Below, piece after piece: positions 377 to 14,168 of a stretch of DNA of 40,937 bases (position 1 is the stretch's first letter; every line of letters starts with the position of its first letter). The position numbers and the translations under genes are program-made. The notes under the pieces were generated by a model. It was not told where the DNA came from, did not search any database, and was given only the letters and a program-made list of their open reading frames with translations. This stretch comes from an uncultured Bacillota bacterium (GTDB lineage: Bacteria > Bacillota_I > Bacilli_A > RFN20 > CAG-288): the NCBI GenBank assembly GCA_949299015.1, contig CASFYT010000005.1:1-40937 (forward strand). Direction: 5' to 3'.

Positions 377-2755
377 ATGATTGTCATGGCCTACATCCTG
401 GAACGTTCCGTCCACGACATCGTCGACGTCCTCTGTCGCCGAGGCCACCTGGACAACCGCATCTTCAACCTCTCCTCGATGCAGGAGGGGACAAGGCTCC
501 ACAACCTCTACCAGGGGGAGCAGGGTTCCGACTACCTCTCGGAATACACCCTTTCTCATGCCTATCAGATCGCCGACTACGTCTTCCGCATCTCGGGCAA
601 GGCCGACGGTGTCTTTCTCGCTCAGGACGGGTCCATCACCATCGAGGAGATCAAGACGACCGTCGCCGACCTGGACGAGTTCGCCCAGGACCACAGCCAG
701 TGGCACCTCGCGCAGGCCATCTTCTATGCGGACATGATCTGCCTCGACCGACACCTGGATCACGTCCGTGTCGTCCTCACCTATCTCCACCAAACCAATT
801 TTCGTAAAAGAAAAAGAATCGAATTGGAATACAGCGCTGAGGAAGTCCACGGCTTCGTCCTGAACCTCCTCGAAAGATATTCCGAATACATGAACCAGAT
901 CCGAAAGCTGAAGGAAGAACGGGACGAGAGCGCCAAGAACATCGTCTTCCCCTATCCCACCCTACGGCCCGGCCAGGAGAAGATGATGTCCTTCGTCCGG
1001 GATTGCGCCTTGGAAGGGGAAAACGGATACATAGAGGCTCCGACGGGAATCGGAAAGACGCTCTCCGTCCTCTATCCGCTCCTGACGCTCTTCGCCGAAA
1101 GAAAATGCGACCATGTCTTCTACCTCACGAGCAAGAATGCCATCAAGACGATTGCCATGGACGGCATCAAGCAGCTCGTCGAGGGAAGGGCCAAGGTCAA
1201 GAGCCTCCTCGTCACGAGCCAGGACAACATCTGCCCCAACGACCGCAAGGGACACTGCAATCCCGACGAATGTCCCCTGGCGAGGAACTACTACGACCAC
1301 CTGGTCGAGAACATCTTCGAACTCCTCTCCCGGTCGGATTCCATCGACAAGGAGACGATCCTCTCCTTCGCCCTCGAGAAGAAGATCTGCCCCTTCCAGT
1401 TCCAGCTCGACCTGAGCCGATACGTCGACGTCCTTGTCTGCGACTACACCTATGTCTATGATTACCATGACAGGCTCGGCCTTTCCGAGTCCTCGATTCC
1501 CCTGGAACGAAGCTATCTCCTGGTCGACGAGTGCCACAACCTCCCCGAACGCGTGCGGGAGATGTACTCCATCGAAATTCCCCTCGCCCTTCTGAAGAAG
1601 GCACGGACGACGGCCCTGGGCCCGGAGCTCAAGGCCCTGCGCGGCGACCTCCGGCAGCTGGAAAAGGTCTTCCAGGAGCTTCCCGCTCCCGACCAGGGGG
1701 AAATCCTTCCCCTGGAGGAGACGCCGGGGGAGGTCTCCGACCTCGTCGAGGACTTCCTCCTCGACTTCAAGGCCGTCCTGCGCAAGACCCCCTTCGTCCT
1801 GAGCGAAGAGCTCTTCGAGTGCTTCTACGCCCTCAACTCGTTCTCCTTCCTCGAAGAGAAGAGGGGGTCGCATCCCGAGCAGTACCTCCTCTACGCCCTC
1901 TTCCTCCACGGGGAAATCCTTTCCCTCCGTCTGGTCTGCCTCGATCCGACGCCGCCCATCCGCGACGGGAACCGCTTCTTCCGCTCCGCCCTCTTCTTCT
2001 CCGCCACGCTCTCTCCCAAGGACTATTACATTGACCTCCTCGGCGGCGACGAAGGAGGAAGAAAGCTTGTCCTTCCTTCGCCCTTCCCCCGGCAAAGGCG
2101 CCTGGTCCTGCTCGACGCCCTGCCCTCCCTCCGCTACCGGGACCGGGAGGACAGCCTTCCGGAAGTCGTCCGCCTCATCCGGGAATGCGTCCTTGCCCGC
2201 AAGGGGAACTACTTCGTCTTCCTCCCCTCCTTCGAATACCTCTCGATGGTCGAGGAACTCCTCAGAAAGGAGGAGGGAATCGACATCCTCGCCCAGGGCC
2301 GGATGATGGGGGAGAAAGAGCGGGAGGAGTTCCTCGCCGAATTCGAGGAACAGCACGAGCGCTACCGGGTCGGCCTCCTGGTCCTCGGAGGCATCTTCTC
2401 GGAGGGCATCGACCTCATCGGGGAGAAGCTCATCGGCGCCATCCTCGTCTCGATCGGCCTTCCCCAGCTGACCTACGAGCGCAACCACATCCAGGCCTAC
2501 TACGCCACGGAAGAAGACCCGCGGAAAGGCTTCCGCTACGCCTACAGCTATCCAGGGCTCAACCGCGTCCTCCAAGCCGCCGGAAGGGTCATCCGCAGCG
2601 AGAAGGACAAGGGCGTGCTCTTCTTCATCGACCGCCGCTTTGCCGAAAAGACCTATCAGTCGGTCTTCGCCGAGCTCTATCCCGACCTCAAGCGCGTCTT
2701 CTCCCCGTCGGGAGTCTCGGCGCTCTGCCGCCATTTCTGGGAGGAAACGAAATGA
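377..2755 (+). CDS. XPD/DinG-type superfamily 2 DNA helicase with N-terminal PD-(D/E)XK nuclease-like domain
   Basis: 792 residues. Residues 60-140 have a PD-(D/E)XK pattern: D77 in GKADGVF and E91-I-K93 in TIEEIKTT. The helicase follows: Walker A APTGIGKT (221-228), four cysteines placed for a 4Fe-4S cluster (C286, C294, C299, C338), motif II DECH (384-387), motif III FSATLSP, and motif [16 protein letters not shown] near the C-terminus. Rad3/XPD/DinG proteins are ATP-driven 5'-3' DNA helicases, and this nuclease-fused form is often annotated ERCC2-like in Bacillota. It probably acts in DNA repair or branched-DNA processing; the exact substrate is not shown. There is no good ribosome binding site; ATG 377 follows the previous stop by 5 nt, suggesting coupling, and ATG 386 is the alternative. 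Its TGA overlaps the lepA ATG. Confidence 0.88.
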
Positions 2756-4566
2756 ACTTCGATCAAAGGCACATCCGAAACTTCTCCGTCGTCGCCCACA
2801 TCGACCACGGGAAGTCCACGCTCTGCGACCGCATCCTGGAGAAGACCGGGGCCGTCGAGGAGAGAAACCTCCAGCCCCAGCTGCTCGACGACATGAACAT
2901 CGAGCGCGAGAGAGGAATCACCGTCAAGCTCAACGCCGTCAACGTCACCTACAAGGCCAAGGACGGGGAGACCTATCTCCTCAACCTCATCGACACCCCC
3001 GGGCACGTCGACTTCACCTACGAGGTCAGCCGCTCCCTGAGCGCGTGCGAAGGGGCCATCCTCCTGGTCGACGCCACCCAAGGCGTCCAGGCCCAGACCC
3101 TGGCCAACGGCTACCTCGCCATCGACAACGGACTGAAGATCCTTCCCGTGATCAACAAGGTCGACCTCCCCTCCGCCAATTTCGAGAACTGCCAGCTCGA
3201 GCTCATCGACACCCTTGGCATCGATCCCGACCTCTGCCTGAAGGTCTCCGCCAAGACCGGAGAAGGCGTCGAGGAACTCCTGGAGCACATCGTCACGGAC
3301 CTTCCCTCGCCCGAAGGCGACATCGAAGCCCCTCTCAAGTGCCTGATCTTCGACTCCAAGTTCGACTCCTATCGCGGGGTCATCGTCCTGATCCGCGTCT
3401 TCGAGGGCCAGATCCGCGTCGGCGACCGCATCCAGCTCATGTCCAACAGGAACGTCTACCAGGTCACGGAGCTCGGCATCCGGACGCCGGGCGAGAGGAA
3501 GGTCGATTCCCTCGGGGCCGGCGAAGTCGGATATCTCGCCGCTTCGATCAAAAACATCAAGGATGTCTCCGTCGGAGACACCATCACTTCGGTCGAAAGG
3601 CCAACCATGGAACCGCTCAAGGGGTTCCGCCGCACGACACCGATGGTCTACGCCGGCCTCTATCCGAGCGAAAACCAGGACTTCGAGAACCTCCATAACG
3701 CCCTGGACAAGCTGAGCCTCAACGATTCCGCCCTCGTCTACGAGCCTGAGACCTCCATCGCCCTCGGCTCGGGATTCCGCTGCGGCTTTTTGGGCCTCCT
3801 CCACATGGAAGTCATCCAGGCCCGGTTGGAGGACGAGTATGACCTCGACCTCGTCTGCACCGCCCCTTCGGTCGTCTACGAGGTCCACTTCACGGACGGG
3901 CGCATCGAGATGATCCAGAACCCGGCCGACTTCCCCAAGGACCGGACGAAGGTGAAGAAGACCCTCGAGCCCTTCGCCAAGGTCCAGGTGATGACGCCCA
4001 AGGACTACGTCGGCGCGGTCATGACCCTGTGCCAGAACAAGAGGGGAGAATACGTCGACATGACCTACGTCGATGAAACCCGCGTCGAGCTGAACTATGA
4101 GATGCCCCTCAGCGAGATTGTCTTCGACTTCTTCGACCGGCTCAAGTCCGTCTCCCAAGGCTACGCCTCCCTCGACTACCAGCTCATCGGGTACCGCGAG
4201 AGCGACGTCGACCGGATGGACATCCTCCTCAACGGCGAGCGCGTCGACGCCCTGACGACGATCGTCTTCCGTCCGACCTGCTATCCGCGGGCCCGGGCGG
4301 TGGTCGACAAGCTCAAGGACGTCATCCCCCGGCAGCAGTTCGAGATTCCCGTCCAGGCGATGATCGGCGGGAAGATCGTCGCCCGCAGCGACATCAAGGC
4401 AGTCCGGAAGGACGTCCTGGCCAAATGCTACGGCGGCGACATCTCCCGCAAGAAGAAGCTCCTGGAGAAGCAGAAGCGCGGCAAGAAGAGGATGAAGGAA
4501 TTCGGAAAGGTCCAGGTCCCGCAGGAGGCCTTCATCGCCATGCTGACAGTCGACGAGGCGAAGTAG
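2752..4566 (+). CDS. lepA: Elongation factor 4 (LepA), ribosome-bound back-translocase GTPase
   Basis: 604 residues, the normal LepA length. The start is the ATG at 2752, inside the helicase stop (ATGA), with GGAGG at 2741-2745 region; it gives [20 protein letters not shown] with the G1 P-loop AHIDHGKST at residues 15-23. The G2 region ERGIT and G3 DTPGH follow, then NKVD for G4. Domains II, III and V and the LepA-specific C-terminal domain are present, ending in a basic helix ([20 protein letters not shown]) typical of the family. LepA binds the ribosome and helps initiation or recovery of stalled translocation under ionic stress. Longer upstream frames are shadows of the helicase gene. Confidence 0.97.
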
Positions 4567-4596
4567 TAGAATGATGCCAAAGCGAGACATCCAATC

Positions 4597-5874
4597 ATGA
4601 CCGAAGACGGAAAGAAATACACGGACCTCGTCTATGCGACAAAGGACGACGTCAAGGCGATCCTCAACCGCGAGAACGTCGATGCGGAATGGCAGAGGGT
4701 CCTCTCCTATCGCCAGGCCTTCTCGCTGGAGACCGAGCTTCGGGACCGGGACTTCCACCCCTGCGTCCTGACCCTGACGCCCACGATCCTCTCCCAGTGC
4801 TACGGCCTGGAGGAGAGGCTCTTTCAGGACCTTCGGCTCTACCACGGCCTGCGGAGGAAGGACGGATTCCGCCTGAAGAGGAAGGCCTTCGCCCTCAAGG
4901 CCCTTTCCCGGCACTGCATGGACAAGATGCCCAACGACGCCACGCTGGAGAAGATCGCCCGCCTGGAGGTGGAGACCCTGCCCTCGTCCTTCTTCCTGCT
5001 GGGCTCCTATTCCCGCCTCTGGGAACAGGAGGACCTCGCCTTCGACGAAGCGCTCTTCCCTCGCCTCAACGCCCTCCTTCAGGGCGATTCCACCCTCGAG
5101 GCGGCCATCCTGAGGAAGGACGTCGTGAAGGACGTCCTCAATCCGCTCCTGCCCTGCCCGGCCGAAGGCATCTCCGAGCAGCTCTCCTTCCTCTTCCTCT
5201 TCCTGCGGCAGCAGGAAGTCCCCCTGCTTTCGCGAGCGGTCCTCGCCGTCTATTTCTTTCTTTCCGAGCGCCCCTTCGAATACGTCAACGAAGAGACGGC
5301 CGCCCTGGTCTGCAAGTTCTTCCTCCTCGCAAGCGGACTGGACCAGGTCGGTTTCGCCCTCGACTTCGAATCGGTCCTCTTCTCCCATTCGGAAACCTTC
5401 TTCCGGAGGCTGAAGGAGACGGAAAGGACCCTGGACCTGACCTATGCGCTGACTTCCATCCTTCCCTACCTCGCCAAGGACGAGGAGAAGATCCGCCAGC
5501 TCCTTGAGGAGTGCCGGAAGGAAGAGGCGGAGCAGGACGCCGCCACCCCGACGGAGGAGGCCTCCCTTCCCCCTGTGGAAGAACTGGCCCTTCCCAACTT
5601 CGGAAGGAGGGAGGACGGGCGCGTCGTCGAAGAGCGGGCGAAAAGGCTGAGGGAGACCTATCCCTCGCTGAAGAAGAGGGAGGCCCATTTCTACGCCGGC
5701 CACTGCCGCATCGGCGCCTTCTACACGATCGAGGACTTCGTCACGTCGGAGATGTCCGTCTACGAGACGGGACGCCAGGGGATGGAAGGCCTGGCCAAGA
5801 AGGGCTTCTACCGCAAGGAGCGCCAGGGAAAGAAGTTCGTCTACACGCCGATTCCCATCGAAGGGCTCGACTAG
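4597..5874 (+). CDS. Degenerate Fic-like protein with C-terminal winged helix (probable pseudoenzyme)
   Basis: 425 residues. The layout resembles large Fic proteins: an all-helical N-terminal region, a segment at 215-247 that lines up with the Fic catalytic loop, then a piece like the post-catalytic helix (FSHSETFFRRLKETERTLDL, 262-281). The canonical HPFxxGN(G/A)R is replaced by RPFEYVNEETA (225-235), so catalytic His, the anion-binding GNG and the final Arg are absent. Residues 355-417 look like a winged helix (FYTIEDFVTSEMSVYETGRQ ... GKKFVYTP), as in Fic proteins that carry one. If related, it could not transfer AMP by the known mechanism. Residues 305-345 are an acidic low-complexity linker. 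It lies 30 nt after lepA and directly abuts hemW. The Fic assignment is by eye and could be wrong; the winged helix is the firmer part. Confidence 0.6.
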   Translation: MTEDGKKYTDLVYATKDDVKAILNRENVDAEWQRVLSYRQAFSLETELRDRDFHPCVLTLTPTILSQCYGLEERLFQDLRLYHGLRRKDGFRLKRKAFALKALSRHCMDKMPNDATLEKIARLEVETLPSSFFLLGSYSRLWEQEDLAFDEALFPRLNALLQGDSTLEAAILRKDVVKDVLNPLLPCPAEGISEQLSFLFLFLRQQEVPLLSRAVLAVYFFLSERPFEYVNEETAALVCKFFLLASGLDQVGFALDFESVLFSHSETFFRRLKETERTLDLTYALTSILPYLAKDEEKIRQLLEECRKEEAEQDAATPTEEASLPPVEELALPNFGRREDGRVVEERAKRLRETYPSLKKREAHFYAGHCRIGAFYTIEDFVTSEMSVYETGRQGMEGLAKKGFYRKERQGKKFVYTPIPIEGLD

Positions 5875-6954
5875 ATGCCCAAGGCCCTCTACCTCCACAT
5901 TCCCTTCTGCGAACACCTCTGCAGCTACTGCGACTTCCCGAAGGTCGTCTGCGGAGTCTATTCGGAAGGGGACTACCTTCGCGCCCTGATCTCCGAAATC
6001 GAGTCCTTTTCGATTCCTCCCTCCGCCATCAAGACGATCTACGTCGGCGGCGGGACGCCCTCCGCGCTTTCCCTTCCCGGCCTGGAGACGCTGCTGTCCT
6101 TCCTACGCCGTTCCTTCGGAGGCGTCGAGGAGTTCACTTTCGAGTGCAATCCGGAATCGGTGGACGAGAAGAAGGCGGAGCTCTTTGCCAACGGCGGCGT
6201 CAATCGCGTCTCCTTGGGCGTGCAGAGCGCGGACCCGCACCTTCTGAGGCGCTTCCGGCGTCATCACGATCCGCAGGACGTCGTTCGCGCCGTCTCTTGC
6301 CTCCGGCGGTCCGGAATTGACAATATCAATCTTGATTTTATCTATGGCATGAAGGATGGATTATCGGAAATCGATGAAGATATCGATTTTGCTCTCTCAT
6401 TGAATCCAACCCATCTTTCCTTCTATTCGCTTCAGGTCGAAGAAGGGACCCTTCTTTTCCGTCAAGGCGTCGAGATCGATCCGGACCATCTGCGGGAGGA
6501 ATACGACTACCTGCGGGAGAGGCTCTCGAGCCACGGCTTCCACCGCTACGAAGTCTCCAACTTCTGCCGTCCGGGATTCGAATCCCGGCACAACCTCACC
6601 TACTGGCACGACGAAGAATACTACGGCTGCGGTCTGGGAGCGAGCGGCTTCCTTCGTTCGCATCGCTACCGCAACACGACCTCGATGCCCCGCTACATGC
6701 GGGGAGATCCTTCCCGCGAGGTGGAACTCGTCGACTCCGAGAGCCGAAAGCTCGAGTACCTGATGCTTCACCTGCGGCTTTCCTCCGGTTTCTCCCTCGA
6801 GGATTACCGTGCCCTCTTCCACGAAGACTTCCTTCTCTCCCATCGCCGGGGGATCCAGGAGGTCTCGTCTCTCGTCGAGGTCCGGGACGGACGCTTTCGC
6901 ATCAAGGACGACGCCCTCTACGTCATGGACCAGGTCCTCCTGGCCCTGATCTGA
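5875..6954 (+). CDS. hemW: HemW, radical-SAM heme chaperone (coproporphyrinogen III oxidase-like)
   Basis: 359 residues. The radical-SAM CxxxCxxC is C12-C16-C19 (HIPFCEHLCSYCDFPK), followed by YVGGGTPSAL, FECNPESV and NRVSLGVQSADPHLLR. The HNxxYW heme-binding signature that separates HemW from the HemN oxidase is present as HNLTYW in the second half, followed by GCGLGASGF. HemW binds and delivers heme rather than oxidising coproporphyrinogen; many genomes lacking heme synthesis keep it. The ATG immediately follows the stop of the Fic-like gene (0 nt gap), so translation is coupled. The lepA-hemW neighbourhood is common in Bacillota, where hrcA-grpE-dnaK often follow, but those are not here. 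The gene ends in TGA. Confidence 0.93.
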   Translation: MPKALYLHIPFCEHLCSYCDFPKVVCGVYSEGDYLRALISEIESFSIPPSAIKTIYVGGGTPSALSLPGLETLLSFLRRSFGGVEEFTFECNPESVDEKKAELFANGGVNRVSLGVQSADPHLLRRFRRHHDPQDVVRAVSCLRRSGIDNINLDFIYGMKDGLSEIDEDIDFALSLNPTHLSFYSLQVEEGTLLFRQGVEIDPDHLREEYDYLRERLSSHGFHRYEVSNFCRPGFESRHNLTYWHDEEYYGCGLGASGFLRSHRYRNTTSMPRYMRGDPSREVELVDSESRKLEYLMLHLRLSSGFSLEDYRALFHEDFLLSHRRGIQEVSSLVEVRDGRFRIKDDALYVMDQVLLALI

Positions 6955-7050: not shown

Positions 7051-7518
7051 ATGGAATCCATGAAGGAAAACCCCATCGACAGGGACGCCTTCTTCTCGGA
7101 CCTCACGCCCAACGCCAGGGAGCGTCTCAAGCGCGTCGTCCTCCATTACCGGCAGAGCCTCTGCGCCCTGCTCATGTTCCATCCCGTCTCCGTCTCGCGC
7201 CTCCTCACCAAGTCCAACGACCTTCCCTCCCTCTTCATGCTCAAGGCCGTCCTGGAGGACCCTCGCCTTCCGGGAAAGGCCCACTCCTTCCTCAGCTACG
7301 TCTCCGGCATCCTCTTCGCCCTCAACTGCCTGGAGAGGGACACCGGCGTCCTCCTGTATCGTCACCTCTTCATCCAGCGGGACTGCGACGAATGGATGAA
7401 GTCCCTCTCCCATTCCTCCTTCTACCGCATCAGCGGCAAGGCCATCCAAACCTTCTTCCAGATCCTGGACGGACCGGAACCGAAACCGCTGAACAAACAG
7501 GAGTCGAAAGGGCAATAG
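7051..7518 (+). CDS. Small helical protein with putative sigma-region-4/ArpU-like helix-turn-helix
   Basis: 155 residues from ATG 7051, chosen over the ATG at 7030 because AAAGGAG (7035-7041) sits 9 nt before it. Residues 99-137 (YRHLFIQRDCDEWMKSLSHS then SFYRISGKAIQTF) have the spacing of a region-4-type helix-turn-helix as in ArpU or sigma-70-like small regulators; the N-terminal 95 residues are helical without a motif I know. No transmembrane segment. It is first in a run of four closely spaced genes leading into tyrS, so it may regulate or serve the membrane proteins that follow; this is inference. The resemblance is weak, so treat it as a hypothetical protein. Confidence 0.65.
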   Translation: MESMKENPIDRDAFFSDLTPNARERLKRVVLHYRQSLCALLMFHPVSVSRLLTKSNDLPSLFMLKAVLEDPRLPGKAHSFLSYVSGILFALNCLERDTGVLLYRHLFIQRDCDEWMKSLSHSSFYRISGKAIQTFFQILDGPEPKPLNKQESKGQ

Positions 7519-7539
7519 GAAGTGGAAGGAGGTTCTTCC

Positions 7540-8220
7540 ATGGCCAAGCTGAGACGAATCTTTCGCGACGAGAGACAGGAGTGCCTGTCTCTTTTCGCCC
7601 TCGCCGCCCTTTCCCTCCTGCTGTTCGACAGTCCGCTCCTGATGCTCCTCTCCCTGATCCTGGAGATCGTCCTGACCCTCGTCCTGCTCGAGAGAAGGGA
7701 GAGGGGGAAGAAGCCCCTGAGGGAGGAGCATTCCGATCTCTCCTTCCTCGACTCGTTCCTCTCCCTCGTCGACGAAGGCTGGCCCATCCGGGAAGCCTAT
7801 GACCAGTCCCTTCCCTTCCTGCCCGAAGGAGAAAGGCGTCCCTATGATCAGTTCTCGGAACGGCTTTCATCCTCCCGAAGCCTTTGCCCCTTCGAGGCCA
7901 AGCTCCGCTTCTTCCTGGAATGCGACGGAAGGAACGAGGCTTATCTCCTCCACCTGCGTTCCCTGCGGGACGCCGTCCGCACGAGACGGGAGGAACTCTC
8001 CCGCTTCCTCGACGAGGAGAGGAAGGCTTCCTTCCGGGAGCGCCTGACGCTCTTCCTCTTTCTCTCCCTCACGGTCTTCCTTTCCCTCTTCTTTCCGTCC
8101 CTGACGGTTTCCTCCACCCATGGCGTGCTCTCCTTCCTCCTTCTCCTTGTCCTCTCCCTCCTCGTCCCCGGCCTTCTCGTCCTCTCGCTGGCCCGACTCC
8201 GGGGGTGGAAGGATGCTTGA
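7540..8220 (+). CDS. Membrane protein resembling a single-repeat type II secretion F (TadB-like) protein
   Basis: 226 residues from ATG 7540; GGAAGGAGG (7524-7532) with 7 nt spacing decides this start over the GTG at 7522. Hydrophobic segments at about 15-31, 33-51, 168-190 and 196-219 flank a cytosolic helical block (68-160). That block opens with FLDSFLSLVDEGWPIREAYD, which fits the T2SF helix pattern (FL..L..L...G.P...AL). The TM-TM-T2SF-TM-TM plan is that of TadB/TadC, the inner-membrane platform of Tad/Flp pili and related secretion ATPase systems. No TadA ATPase, prepilin peptidase or pilin gene lies in the window. The gene overlaps the next one by 8 nt. Family assignment is by topology and pattern only. 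Confidence 0.6.
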   Translation: MAKLRRIFRDERQECLSLFALAALSLLLFDSPLLMLLSLILEIVLTLVLLERRERGKKPLREEHSDLSFLDSFLSLVDEGWPIREAYDQSLPFLPEGERRPYDQFSERLSSSRSLCPFEAKLRFFLECDGRNEAYLLHLRSLRDAVRTRREELSRFLDEERKASFRERLTLFLFLSLTVFLSLFFPSLTVSSTHGVLSFLLLLVLSLLVPGLLVLSLARLRGWKDA

Positions 8221-8788
8221 CCGGATTCGCTCCCTCCTCACGAGGAAGGAGAAGGGGCCACGAAGGGAAAGGCGAAGGACGAAGAGGCCTCTCCTCTGGG
8301 CCCTTTTGCTCTCCCTGGCCCTCGGCCTGCTGCTCGGGCTTTTCCTCCAGAAGGCCATCCTGGTCTTCTTTCTCCCTCTTTTCACGCTCGCCTTCTTTTC
8401 CCTTCGGAAGAAAGAAGGAACGAAAATGGCGAAGGACGAGGAAGAGTTCTTCCAAAACTTCTATCTCTATTCATCGATGACAAGAGAAGGAAAGACTTCC
8501 TTTTCCAAGGCGGTCGACGAACTTCCCATCTCTCCGTTGAAAGACAAGCTTTTGTCGTCGATCGATTGCGCCAAACTGACGCGGAAGGACTTCGAGGAGG
8601 CCGGGGTCGCGCCCTCCCTGTTGGTCGACCGGACGACGCGGCTGGCCTTTTGCGACGAGATTGCCGAGGAGGATCTCGAGGACTACCGCCGGCTTCTTCC
8701 GCCGCGGAGGAGGCCGTCTTTCCCTTCCTTCCTTCCTCTGCTCCTTCTCCTCCCTCTCCTTCTCCTGACCTACCTGGCCATCCTATGA
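8213..8788 (+). CDS. Second membrane protein resembling a TadC-like (T2SF) platform component
   Basis: 191 residues from ATG 8213, within the end of the previous gene; frames extending further upstream are shadow. There is a strongly basic N-terminus (residues 11-25), two hydrophobic segments (25-45 and 47-64), a cytosolic block starting EEEFFQNFYLYSSMTREGKT, again like the opening T2SF helices (FF..L......G.....A), and a proline-bounded hydrophobic tail (170-191). It is shorter than usual TadC and seems to keep one C-terminal membrane segment. Together with the preceding protein it looks like a TadB/TadC pair. The stop overlaps the next start as ATGA, so the genes are translationally coupled. 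Confidence 0.55.
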   Translation: MLDRIRSLLTRKEKGPRRERRRTKRPLLWALLLSLALGLLLGLFLQKAILVFFLPLFTLAFFSLRKKEGTKMAKDEEEFFQNFYLYSSMTREGKTSFSKAVDELPISPLKDKLLSSIDCAKLTRKDFEEAGVAPSLLVDRTTRLAFCDEIAEEDLEDYRRLLPPRRRPSFPSFLPLLLLLPLLLLTYLAIL

Positions 8789-9117
8789 AAGTTTTCCTCC
8801 TGATCTTCTTCCTTCCTCTCTTCTTCCACGACGTCGCCCTCTCCGCAAGGGGTCGTGATTGGGCCCAAAGGAATGCTTTGATCGTCGAGAGGAACCTCTC
8901 GTCGGAAGAGACGCTTGCCTCAAGGGGCATCGACGAACGGCTCCGCTTCGTCCTGATCTCGTCCGACGAAAGGGAGGTCCGCTATGCGCTGGAAACCCGG
9001 AGGAAGCTCCTGCTGACCGGAAGGGGCGTCCGCACTTCCTTCGTCTACTCTCGAATTGAGGGGGATTTTGAGCTATACTCTTGTGCGGGAAATACCTCAT
9101 CAAGGAGAAAGATATGA
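8785..9117 (+). CDS. Small exported or membrane-anchored protein of unknown function
   Basis: 110 residues, starting at the ATG overlapping the previous stop (ATGA). The N-terminus MKVFLLIFFLPLFFHDVALS is a signal peptide or membrane anchor, and the rest is charged and would be extracytoplasmic. It lacks the GxxxE pilin processing motif and is not an obvious TadE. Its own TGA overlaps the tyrS ATG (9114-9117). The last 20 or so codons use AT-rich, rare-looking codons and run through the tyrS upstream region, so the true C-terminus may once have been shorter or the tail may be drifting. Position in the run suggests it works with the two T2SF-like proteins. Confidence 0.5.
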   Translation: MKVFLLIFFLPLFFHDVALSARGRDWAQRNALIVERNLSSEETLASRGIDERLRFVLISSDEREVRYALETRRKLLLTGRGVRTSFVYSRIEGDFELYSCAGNTSSRRKI

Positions 9118-10373
9118 CGAACCTCATCGACGATTTGGAAAAGCGCGGCCTCCTGGAGAGCTTTTCCGACGAACAGGCCATCAAGGCCATGCTCCAGAAC
9201 AAGACGACGCTCTACTGCGGCTTCGACCCGAGCGCCCGTTCCCTTCAGCTGGGGAACTTCATCATGATCCACATCCTCCAGCGCTTCCAGAAGATGGGCC
9301 ACAAGGTCATCGCGGTCCTCGGCGGCGCGACCGGCATGATCGGCGACCCCTCCGGAAAGTCGAGCGAGCGAAAGTTCCTCGGCGAGGAGCAGGTCCTCGA
9401 GAACGCCAAGGCCATTCAAAGGCAGCTTTCCAAGTATATCGACACCTCCGATCCCGAGAAGGGCATGATCCTGAACAATTTCGACTGGTGGAGCCAGACC
9501 AACATCCTGTCCTTCCTCCGGGACTACGGCAAGAAGTTCCAGGTCAACTACATGCTCTCCAAGGAGATCGTCAAGTCCCGGCTCGAGACGGGCATCTCCT
9601 ACACGGAGTTCAGCTACATGATCCTCCAGTCGGGAGACTTCCTACGGCTCTACCGCGACTACGGATGCCAGATCCAGTTCGGAGGCGGAGACCAGTGGGG
9701 CAACCTGACGACGGCGCTCGACTTCCTCAAGCGCAGCGAGGGGCCGGATGCGAAGGCGGAGGTCTTCTCCTTCAAGCTGATCACCGACGCCAACGGAAAG
9801 AAGTTCGGCAAGAGCGAGAACGGCGCCCTCTACCTCGATCCGACCATGACCTCGCCCTACCGCATCTACCAGTATTTCATGAACGTCTCGGACAGCGACG
9901 TCCTGAAGTACCTCTACATCTTCGACGATCGCGACATCGAGGAGATCAACGCCATCTACAAGGATCACATGGAGCATCCCGAGAGGCGCGAGGGACAACG
10001 GGAGCTCGCCCGCGTCATCGTCACCTCCCTCCATGGAAAGGAGAAGGCCGATTCCTGCGAGAAGATGTCCAAGGCCTTGTTTTCGGACGACTTCTCCGGC
10101 CTTCGGAAGGAAGAGCTTTCGGAACTGACCGACGGGCTCCCCCTCGTCCGGCTGAGCGGAGAAAAGGCGCTCGTCGACGTCCTGATCGAACTGAAGCTGG
10201 CGTCTTCCCGACGGGAAAGCCGGGAGTTCCTCAACAACGGTGCCGTCAAGGTCAACGGCCGGAAGGTTTCCGACCCGAACTTCGTCCTCGGCGCCAAGGA
10301 CGCCCTCGAAGGCGGCTACGTCTTCGTCAAGCGAGGCAAGAGGAACTACGGCTCAGTCCTCTTCGAGGAATGA
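9114..10373 (+). CDS. tyrS: Tyrosyl-tRNA synthetase
   Basis: 419 residues from ATG 9114, with AAGGAG (9102-9107) 6 nt upstream; a TTG at 9081 is in frame but lacks such a site. It charges tRNA-Tyr with tyrosine. Class I Rossmann core with CGFDPSARSLQLGNF (residues 35-49): the HIGH box is QLGN, Q45 and N48 standing where Bacillus enzymes have His45 and His48. The KMSKS loop is KFGKS (230-234), and FGGGDQWGN is present. An S4 RNA-binding domain occupies about 350-419. A possible -10 box TATACT lies at 9074-9079 but has no good -35, and no T-box leader is visible. The 3' end overlaps the convergent hydrolase gene by 21 nt. Confidence 0.96.
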   Translation: MTNLIDDLEKRGLLESFSDEQAIKAMLQNKTTLYCGFDPSARSLQLGNFIMIHILQRFQKMGHKVIAVLGGATGMIGDPSGKSSERKFLGEEQVLENAKAIQRQLSKYIDTSDPEKGMILNNFDWWSQTNILSFLRDYGKKFQVNYMLSKEIVKSRLETGISYTEFSYMILQSGDFLRLYRDYGCQIQFGGGDQWGNLTTALDFLKRSEGPDAKAEVFSFKLITDANGKKFGKSENGALYLDPTMTSPYRIYQYFMNVSDSDVLKYLYIFDDRDIEEINAIYKDHMEHPERREGQRELARVIVTSLHGKEKADSCEKMSKALFSDDFSGLRKEELSELTDGLPLVRLSGEKALVDVLIELKLASSRRESREFLNNGAVKVNGRKVSDPNFVLGAKDALEGGYVFVKRGKRNYGSVLFEE

Positions 10374-11531: not shown

Positions 11532-11563
11532 GGTATTGTCTTCACGAAAGGAGGACTTCACAT

Positions 11564-14125
11564 ATGGCCGAAGAACAACGATATACGCAAAAGGTCATCC
11601 AAGCCATCAACGATGGAATCCAATATACGAAGGACAAGTCCCTTCCTTCCTTCGACGTACCGGAACTCCTGCGCGTCCTCTTCGATCAGGAGGATTCGCT
11701 CTACTTCAGCGTCCTGCGAAAGGTCGGCGTCGACCCGAAGAGAGTCTCCCAGATCATCGACCGCTTCGTCGAGCAGACGGCCAAGACGACTTCCTCGGAG
11801 GAGCCCGAGACGTCCGCCGACGTCAAGAACATCCTCTACGTCGCCAGCAAGGTCCAGCGCCAGATGAAGGACGACTTCCTCTCCGTCGAACATCTCCTGC
11901 TCGCCCACTTCGAGACGAGGCATTCCATCCTGAGGGAGCTTCAGTCCCTGGAAGGGTACGACAAGTCCCGCTTCCAGAAGGCCATCGACCAGATCCGGGG
12001 TGGAAACCACGTGACGACCGATGCCCCGGAGAGCCAGTACGAGGCGCTCAAGAAGTATGGCCGAGACCTCGTCGACGAAGTCGCCCGCGGAAAGATCGAC
12101 CCCGTCATCGGACGCGACAACGAGATCCGCCGCGTCATGGAAATCCTTTCCCGCAAGAGCAAGAACAACCCCGTCCTCATCGGCGATCCGGGCGTCGGCA
12201 AGACCGCGGTCGTCGAGGGCCTGGCCTGGCGCATCTTCAAGGGGGACGTCCCCGAGAGCCTGAAGGACAAGTCCATCTACGAGCTGGACGTCGGATCCCT
12301 GATCGCCGGCGCGAAGTACCGCGGCGAATTCGAGGAGCGGCTCAAGGCCGTGATGAAGGAGGTCCAGAAGAGCGAGGGCCGCCTCATCCTCTTCATCGAC
12401 GAGATCCATACCTTGATCGGTGCCGGAGCCGGCGGGGACAGCAGCCTCGATGCCGCCAACATCCTCAAGCCGCTCCTCGCGCGAGGCGAGCTCCACTGCA
12501 TCGGCGCGACGACCCTCGACGAATACCGGAAGTACATCGAGAAGGACCAGGCCTTTGCCCGCCGTATGCAGAAGGTCCTGATCGACGAGCCGACGGTCGA
12601 CGACACGATTGCCATCCTCCGCGGCATCAAGGACCGCTATGAGCAGCACCATGGAGTGGAGATCACCGACGACGCCATCATCGCCGCCGTCACCCTCTCC
12701 AAGCGCTACATCACCGACCGCTTCCTTCCGGACAAGGCCATCGACCTGATCGACGAGGCCTGCGCCAAGGTCCGCATGCAGATCGACACGATGCCCGAGG
12801 AACTCGACGAGGTCAGCCGGAAGCTCATGCAGCTCCAGATCGAGAAGGTCTCCCTCAAGAACGACGACTCGCCCACCGTCCAGAAACGGCGCCAGGAGAT
12901 GGAAGAGGAAATCGCCGAGCTCACCAGCCGCAAGGACGAGCTGACCGCCAAATGGAAGGCGGAGAAGGAGGAGAACGAGCGTCAGAAGGAAGTGAAGAAG
13001 AAGCTGGACCTGGCCCGCCTCAACCTCGAAAAGGCGATGTCCGACGCCGACTACCTGACGGCGGCGAAGATCCAGAACGAGGAGATCCCGACCCTCCAGG
13101 AGCAGATGCGGACGCTTTCCGAGAACGCGGACCGGGAAGGGTCGATGGTCTCGGACGTCGTCGACGACGAATCGGTCGCCGAGGTCGTCTCGGGTTGGAC
13201 CGGAATCCCCGTCAGCAAGCTGACCCAGAGCGAATCCAACAAGCTGCTCGGCCTGAAGGGCGAGCTCGAGCGCAGGGTCATCGGCCAGGACGAGGCCCTG
13301 ACGCAGATCGCCTCCTCGATCCTGCGAAGCCGAGCGGGCCTGGCGGACGAGAGCCGGCCCATCGGAAGCTTCCTCTTCCTCGGCCCCACCGGCGTCGGCA
13401 AGACCGAAGTCGCCAAGGCCCTGGCGGAGCAGCTGTTCGACTCGGAGAAGCAGATCGTCCGGATCGACATGTCGGAATACATGGAGAAGGAATCCGTCAG
13501 CCGGCTGATCGGCGCTGCGCCGGGCTACGTCGGCTACGAGGAGGGCGGCCAGCTGACCGAGGCCGTCCGCCGCAAGCCCTACTCCATCCTCCTCTTCGAC
13601 GAGATCGAGAAGGCCCATCCCGACGTCTTCAACGTCCTGCTGCAGGTCCTCGACGACGGCCGTCTCACCGACGGCCAGGGACGGACGGTGGACTTCACGA
13701 ACACGATCATCATCATGACCAGCAACCTCGGCTCGGAAATCCTGTTGGAGGGAGAAGGAGAGGAAAGCCGACGGAAGGTCCTCGAACTGCTCAAGCGCTC
13801 CTTCCGCCCGGAATTCCTCAACCGGATCGACGAGATCGTCCTCTTCCATTCCCTGACCGACAAGGTCGTCGACAAGATCGTCGAGAAGTTCCTCAACGAC
13901 CTCGGACGGAGGCTTCAGCAGCGCAACGTCCGCTTCCAATACACCGACAAGGCCGTCTCCTGGATCCATCGCCATGGGTTCGATCCCGTCTATGGCGCCC
14001 GGCCTCTTCGCCGCTACATCCAGAACAACGTCGAGACGCCGATGGCCCAGGAGATCCTCCAAGGAAAGGTCCTGGACCATATCCAGCTCGATGCCAACGA
14101 AAAGGGACTCTTCTTCACCGAATAA
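11564..14125 (+). CDS. clpB: ClpB disaggregase (Hsp100 AAA+ chaperone)
   Basis: 853 residues, usual ClpB length. Divergent N-domain (1-150), AAA1 with Walker A GDPGVGKT (207-214) and Walker B LFIDEIH (276-282), a long coiled-coil middle domain (about 405-525) that marks ClpB rather than ClpC, and AAA2 with GPTGVGKT (607-614) and [12 protein letters not shown]. Pore loops are KYRGEF (AAA1) and GYVGYEEGG (AAA2). No ClpP-binding IGF/LGF loop was seen, consistent with a disaggregase. It works with DnaK to pull proteins out of aggregates. Single-gene unit: CIRCE-controlled promoter upstream, intrinsic terminator 8 nt after the stop. HrcA control of clpB is known in mollicutes and relatives. Confidence 0.97.
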
Positions 14126-14132
14126 AGAAAAT

Positions 14133-14168
14133 GGCTGTCCGGACATTAACTTCCGGGCAGCCTTTTTT
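14133..14168 (+). terminator. Intrinsic terminator of clpB
   Basis: 10-bp stem GGCTGTCCGG / CCGGGCAGCC (one U-G pair), 10-nt loop, then six T (14163-14168). On the minus strand the stem is followed by ATTTTCTTTATT, so it may also stop readthrough from nth. Confidence 0.92.

Follow-up and report, generated by a model that had tools for sequence, protein, structure and literature searches.

What would keep two adjacent, platform-like membrane proteins in a genome where no motor for them is found? The question is raised by a short gene set in an uncultured Bacillota bacterium, within the stretch of DNA analyzed here (the window, 40,937 nucleotides of contig CASFYT010000005.1). Reading of its open frames places four plus-strand ORFs, P1 to P4, between the end of a hemN-like gene and the start of tyrS (Table 1), with overlaps of 8 bases between P2 and P3, 4 bases between P3 and P4, and 4 bases between P4 and tyrS. 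These coordinates bear out the first-pass annotation of this DNA, which had described four closely packed genes with overlaps running into tyrS. Hydropathy profiles of P2 (226 amino acids [aa]) contain hydrophobic stretches at residues 15-53, 167-192, and 187-222, and those of P3 (191 aa) at residues 25-66, which could accommodate two segments, and 167-191; both are thus predicted to be membrane proteins with a soluble middle part. P4 has one such stretch (residues 1-22) and P1 has none. None of the four window proteins matched a fitting Pfam family over its cut-off, and no fitting NCBIfam family was found for P2, P3, or P4.

Table 1. Features of the gene set and its two neighbors, in window coordinates
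Feature	Coordinates	Strand	Description
hemN-like radical SAM gene	5875..6954	+	PF04055, E 5.8e-26; HemN_C below cut-off; upstream neighbor
P1	7030 or 7051..7518	+	Small, without hydrophobic segment; possible DNA-binding regulator
P2	7540 (ATG) or 7522 (GTG)..8220	+	T2SF-like platform protein; counterpart of the gene after the TadA-type ATPase
P3	8213..8788	+	Second T2SF-like platform protein
P4	8785..9117	+	Small; hydrophobic segment at the N terminus; occupies the position of the TadF-like protein in the full operon
tyrS	9114..10373	+	PF00579, E 3.4e-72; downstream neighbor, start overlaps P4 stop

Homologs of P2 in other lineages of the order place the set in a larger context. Of the order's 279 genomes, 91 were matched by a P2 profile, in some cases in short or broken frames, and 73 of the 91 lie outside the window's family. 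We read 37 non-family loci from 37 of these 73 genomes, near-duplicates included, and P2 follows a TadA-type ATPase in 35 of them; among the 18 loci fetched first, the P2 homolog stands beside such an ATPase in 16, the exceptions being L082 and L092. L082 (contig C5 of G157) carries a family-type operon almost identical to that of G018, inside the bin of another family; it is probably contamination or a misbinned contig, and it was excluded from the non-family locus counts and the motif counts given below. By a tally made by eye, four of the 73 genomes fall outside the ATPase list: G196 and G197, which form genus g38, and G108 and G173, whose P2 matches look spurious (internal stops; a 586-aa frame). 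The operon consists of eight genes, P1 (helix-turn-helix [HTH]-like), X, Y, a TadA-type ATPase, P2, P3, P4, and a gene for a pilin-like protein. All eight were assigned in 28 of the 35 ATPase-bearing loci, while three loci run off their contigs and four are without P1; some of the profiles behind these assignments were built from loci on which they were later run. One such eight-gene, Tad-like operon with a TadA-type ATPase occupies L094:4942-9552 in this uncultured order of Bacilli, and 34 other loci are similar. Its occurrence in other lineages lends support to the earlier proposal that the window holds a reduced Tad machine.

The ATPase of the full operon matches PF00437 (E 2e-24) and the TadA model TIGR03819 (E 2.5e-40, below the model cut-off), with VirB11 nearly equal (E 2.4e-37); its matches in the PDB include 2oap (E 4.4e-30) and CpaF (E 1.3e-23). 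Two P4 proteins of the full operon were scanned, and one of them gave a sub-cut-off match to TadF (E 2.6e-4); a profile comparison between the family's P4 and this TadF-like P4 did not show homology. For P1, which the first-pass annotation described as a putative helix-turn-helix protein, family searches with the window copy gave no match; two of three full-operon homologs tested weakly match phrog_248, "transcriptional activator" (E 1.5e-5 and 7.9e-5); a P1 profile searched against solved structures returned nothing useful. Across the 279 genomes, a T2SSE ATPase was found in 199 and the prepilin peptidase PF01478 in 13 at E 0.001 (12 over cut-off), and the eight-gene machine seems to dispense with the usual peptidase. 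Pilins are expected to carry a glutamate five residues after the usual cleavage site. The pilin-like protein of the operon (for example, L098:9409-9564) begins with a nearly invariant MSEIKGQLLG followed by a hydrophobic stretch, and it is without that glutamate. Separately, 12 genomes of the order (L099-L110, L218-L229) encode on a single contig a PilB-like ATPase of full length, a PilC/GspF-type protein with two domains, and a peptidase, clusters that were perhaps acquired horizontally.

We asked whether P2 and P3 are single-repeat T2SF-like platform proteins, as the first reading of the sequence had proposed. PF00482 matched neither window protein and returned nothing from the window's genome even at E 10, in a search that gave matches in all 14 control genomes, 13 of them over cut-off. 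This check therefore fails on the window's own proteins, and the T2SF signal is reached only through relatives, where profile comparisons do support the proposal. The family's P2 profile aligned with ATPase-linked P2 at a probability of 98.1 (E 1.2e-13, 203 columns), and with more rows at 99.1 (E 3.9e-18; score 98.4 versus 30.1 for the best shuffle). Family P3 aligned with ATPase-linked P3 at 94.9 (E 4.4e-8), and in the larger run at 96.9 (E 2.3e-10; score 55.9 versus 39.8). The larger comparison was made with hhalign, with global alignment requested and 12 shuffles per pair; negative controls with tyrS and P1 gave values of at most 0.05. Family P2 also aligned with family P3 (96.3; score 51.8 versus 30.7 for the best shuffle), P2 with ATPase-linked P3 (97.0), and P3 with ATPase-linked P2 (96.0). 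Since the cross pairs score nearly as high, P2 and P3 appear to be paralogs, and the one-to-one match of P3 leans also on gene order.

Connection to known T2SF proteins comes from ATPase-linked P3, which aligned with the second PilC/GspF domain at 93.5 (score 43.8 versus 9.0 for the best shuffle); the other seven comparisons with these domains, covering family P2, family P3, and ATPase-linked P2 with either domain and ATPase-linked P3 with the first, were weak (0.15 to 8.3). A P2 relative in G073 exceeds the PF00482 cut-off, about 12 ATPase-linked or g38 P3 and P2 proteins match it below cut-off (assigned by eye from coordinates), and 37 of the 279 genomes have some PF00482 match at E 0.01. 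The Pfam family T2SSF was matched by one of five ATPase-linked P2/P3 proteins scanned, at E 0.16. Single-sequence structure models of P2 and P3 were poor (mean pLDDT 63 and 62; pTM 0.40 and 0.31), and structure searches with them returned nothing significant, as did a search of the full-operon P3 profile against solved structures return nothing useful. OutF cytoplasmic domain I of a type II secretion platform (5nbg) ranked 10th in the Foldseek search for P2 (E 3.5, probability 0.41) and was discounted as evidence. Tad platform proteins TadB and TadC have one T2SF domain each, as stated in a passage of PMC6668835. Altogether, the profiles support P2 and P3 as putative single-domain, TadB/TadC-like platform proteins, with PF00482 reached indirectly via relatives.

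The rest of the machine was sought in the window's genome and beyond it. In the window's genome, searches found no T2SSE-family ATPase over cut-off, no prepilin peptidase, and no pilin-like gene, in agreement with the absence of all three noted from the window itself. Given that this genome is 85% complete, claims of absence rest on the 15 genomes of the genus together. None of the 15 has a T2SSE (PF00437) match at E 1e-5, a match to the order's own ATPase profile at E 0.01, or a PF01478 prepilin peptidase at E 0.001. The order's ATPase profile likewise found nothing in 22 of the 23 genomes of the family; the exception is G019, where an ATPase of 588 aa belongs to a separate cluster on another contig, together with a peptidase and a platform protein of two domains. 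These searches run against the suggestion that the motor is encoded elsewhere. A profile of the operon's pilin-like gene found no convincing copy in 22 genomes without the operon ATPase and recovered the gene, with E values no higher than 6.3e-14, in 10 of 10 controls that carry the ATPase. Four weak matches to this profile were judged spurious by us: G001 (E 0.008, inside a 266-aa frame), G196 (0.075), G013 (0.089), and G006 (0.092). Weak PF00437 matches in the window's genome are below cut-off, and the best of them (E 5.3e-4) falls within an 853-aa ORF at 11564-14125, which we take to be clpB. Because searches detected neither motor nor pilin-like subunit nor peptidase, the set is unlikely to assemble a pilus in the established way, and the platform would act otherwise or be driven in trans.

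The gene set itself recurs across the genus in open frames, at 17 to 50% protein identity to the window copies, which is more than chance would give. P2 was detected in 13 of 15 genus genomes by BLAST and in all 15 by profile (18 of 23 in the family), and P3 in all 15, two of these copies being cut at a contig end. P1 is missing in 4 of the 15 and P4 in 3 of the 13 loci with a continuing contig, losses that suggest a set still shrinking. The constant core is P2 plus P3; the genes thus co-occur among relatives, a point on which the earlier interpretation had been made to depend. As far as contigs reach, the recurring order is lepA, a 425-aa gene of unknown family, hemN, P1 (where present), P2, P3, P4 (where present), tyrS, and clpB, the labels lepA and clpB being our presumptive readings of the sequences. 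The set is followed by tyrS in 12 of the 13 continuing loci (the exception is G009), and the junction of P2 and P3 keeps its short overlap or gap. A tyrS-based scan of named genomes, in which 80 loci were kept and 26 examined, included one genus member (MAG Bacilli bacterium SUG353), with a P3 terminus identical to that of G005. At L030:1295-2113, also in a genus member, a 272-aa exported ORF, presumably hydrolase-like, occupies the place of P1 between hemN and P2.

Elsewhere in the family, the sister genus (G018, G019, G021, and G022) has P1, X, Y, P2, P3, and P4, with tyrS next in three of the four genomes. G017 has P1, one ORF related to P2/P3, and another membrane ORF upstream of tyrS, and the contig of G015 ends at tyrS. 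In G016 (L214:6675-7753), the place of P2 and P3 directly before tyrS is taken by two short membrane ORFs, one of 172 and the other of 187 aa, without detectable similarity.

Selection on the pair was estimated as dN/dS by the Nei-Gojobori method (our own script) in four family pairs, several with dS near saturation. For G011/G013, values were 0.05 (P2), 0.10 (P3), 0.08 (hemN), and 0.05 (tyrS); for G018/G157, in the sister genus, 0.08 (P2), 0.09 (P3), and 0.03 (tyrS). In G006/G008, P2 (0.26) evolved at nearly twice the ratio of hemN (0.14), with P3 at 0.17. Constraint is modest in the pair formed by the window and G014, with 0.56 for P1, 0.39 for P2, 0.37 for P3, 0.30 for P4, 0.31 for hemN, and 0.11 for tyrS. 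Ratios of 0.05 to 0.39, together with open P2 and P3 frames in 15 of 15 genus genomes, argue against decay and support purifying selection on the P2/P3 pair.

A second motor-less group allows the loss to be compared within the order. Genus g38 is placed in a large ATPase-bearing family and has P1, X, Y, P2, P3, and P4; no ATPase at E 1e-8 and no convincing pilin-like gene were found in its two genomes. A GG motif in P2 is present in 35 of 35 ATPase-bearing loci and, at that column, in neither of the two g38 loci and in none of 19 loci of the window's family, one of which (L055) has a GG close to the motif column. This distribution supports a motif that tracks the motor, gone wherever the motor is gone. 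GExxGxL signatures are present in PilC/GspF-type proteins of the order and were paired with the GG slot of P2 by eye. The two motor-less groups could share one single loss, and an AU test does not reject their union in one clade (p 0.26). A tree of P2 plus P3, a quick tree with long branches, instead needs two changes. Given the AU result, independence of the two losses rests mainly on family placement.

We think it somewhat probable that the window encodes a Tad-type platform without its motor, in which P2 and P3 have been retained for an ATP-independent role in the membrane, perhaps ion-channel activity. An ancestral Tad-like operon would have lost its TadA-type ATPase and small pilin-like subunit in the window's family. 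P2 and P3 would make up a TadB/TadC-type platform and most likely still associate as a complex in the cytoplasmic membrane; where retained, P4 would be an exported accessory and P1 a regulator. Such a platform without an ATP motor would most likely be a passive or ion-gradient-coupled membrane complex, its role a reduced version of the channel activity that platform proteins have been proposed to have. Computation supports the homology of the pair, the absence of motor, pilin-like subunit, and peptidase, the conserved gene order, purifying selection, and the absence of GG where the motor is gone; complex formation, a membrane role, and ion coupling are what we infer for P2 and P3. That the platform pair is intact without its ATPase and pilin-like partner points to an independent use for the base of the machine. 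More tentatively, and with considerable doubt, we propose that the platform of a type IV filament is viable without its motor, as a stand-alone P2-P3 machine gated or driven by an ion gradient and kept after a loss of ATPase and pilin-like subunit that took place twice in the order. As to function, P2 and P3 may also belong to a different membrane system reusing the T2SF fold.

The same evidence bears on other readings. A relic in slow decay, nearly or wholly without function today, would fit the apparent step-by-step loss of genes (first the ATPase and the pilin-like gene, next X and Y, and finally P1 or P4 in some genomes) as well as fast divergence, with window-G014 ratios near 0.4. We consider this unlikely, however, as the P2 and P3 frames are open in each of the 15 genus genomes, even where identity falls to 17%, their short overlaps or gaps persist, and dN/dS in the other three pairs is 0.05 to 0.26, within about twofold of hemN in the two comparable pairs. 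Alternatively, the platform could be driven in trans by an ATPase that is encoded in another part of the genome and is either unrelated or highly divergent. An 85% complete genome with weak PF00437 matches leaves some room for such a split machine, but the lack of T2SSE matches in any of the 15 genus genomes, the failure of the order's ATPase profile even at E 0.01, and the loss of the P2 motif in both motor-less groups make it distinctly unlikely. It is very improbable that P2 and P3 are unrelated small membrane proteins that came to a similar place by chance. The lack of any family over cut-off, the poor structure models, and the weak comparisons of family P2 and P3 with PilC/GspF domains (probability 0.2 to 8) would be expected if so; against it are profile links to ATPase-linked P2 and P3 that span nearly the whole proteins and exceed all 12 shuffles in each case, the shared P2-P3-P4 order, and the G073 protein over the PF00482 cut-off.

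Among described systems, the set most resembles Tad (Flp, type IVc) in its two adjacent single-domain T2SF-like membrane proteins, the counterparts of the TadB/TadC platform pair, and in the other lineages of the order the pair follows a TadA-type ATPase and precedes P4. It differs in that searches here found neither TadA nor a pilin-like subunit nor a prepilin peptidase, in the shortness of both proteins, and in a P2 without GG. PulF/GspF of type II secretion is likewise a membrane platform, and the full-operon P3 homolog is T2SF by profile, but PulF has two cytoplasmic domains per chain and an ATPase partner. A section of PMC10790770 proposes PulF as a trimeric ion channel using the membrane potential, with conformational blocking as the authors' alternative. 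The channel idea for P2 and P3 is transferred from this two-domain protein of a Gram-negative system, which weighs against it. The Com pilus of monoderms is similar as a minimal membrane part in a one-membrane lineage (one membrane being inferred here from the class Bacilli); it has, however, a ComGA ATPase, pilins, a ComC peptidase, and ComGB with a repeated domain, according to a part of PMC10191384 that also describes platform proteins as coupling the ATPase to the pilin, and neither ATPase nor peptidase was found here.

Titles and abstract openings of the papers listed by literature searches yielded no description of a motor-less platform pair or of the eight-gene operon. A 2011 survey reports, in the portion cited here, Mollicutes and Spirochaetales without type IV pilus genes (PMC3244431), and a word search found neither "pili" nor "pilus" in the main text of two papers on related uncultured orders (PMC10868615, PMC7301438). 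A platform pair that persists under selection while the other three components go undetected amounts to a natural experiment on the platform's independent role, be it that of an ion channel, a scaffold, or something else. Within the order, one and the same operon can be compared directly with and without its ATPase, and a P2 motif tracks the motor. Finally, the minus strand of the window holds very long open frames at 2677-5916 (1079 aa) and 11558-14146 (862 aa), antisense to the genes there, which are likely an effect of codon composition.
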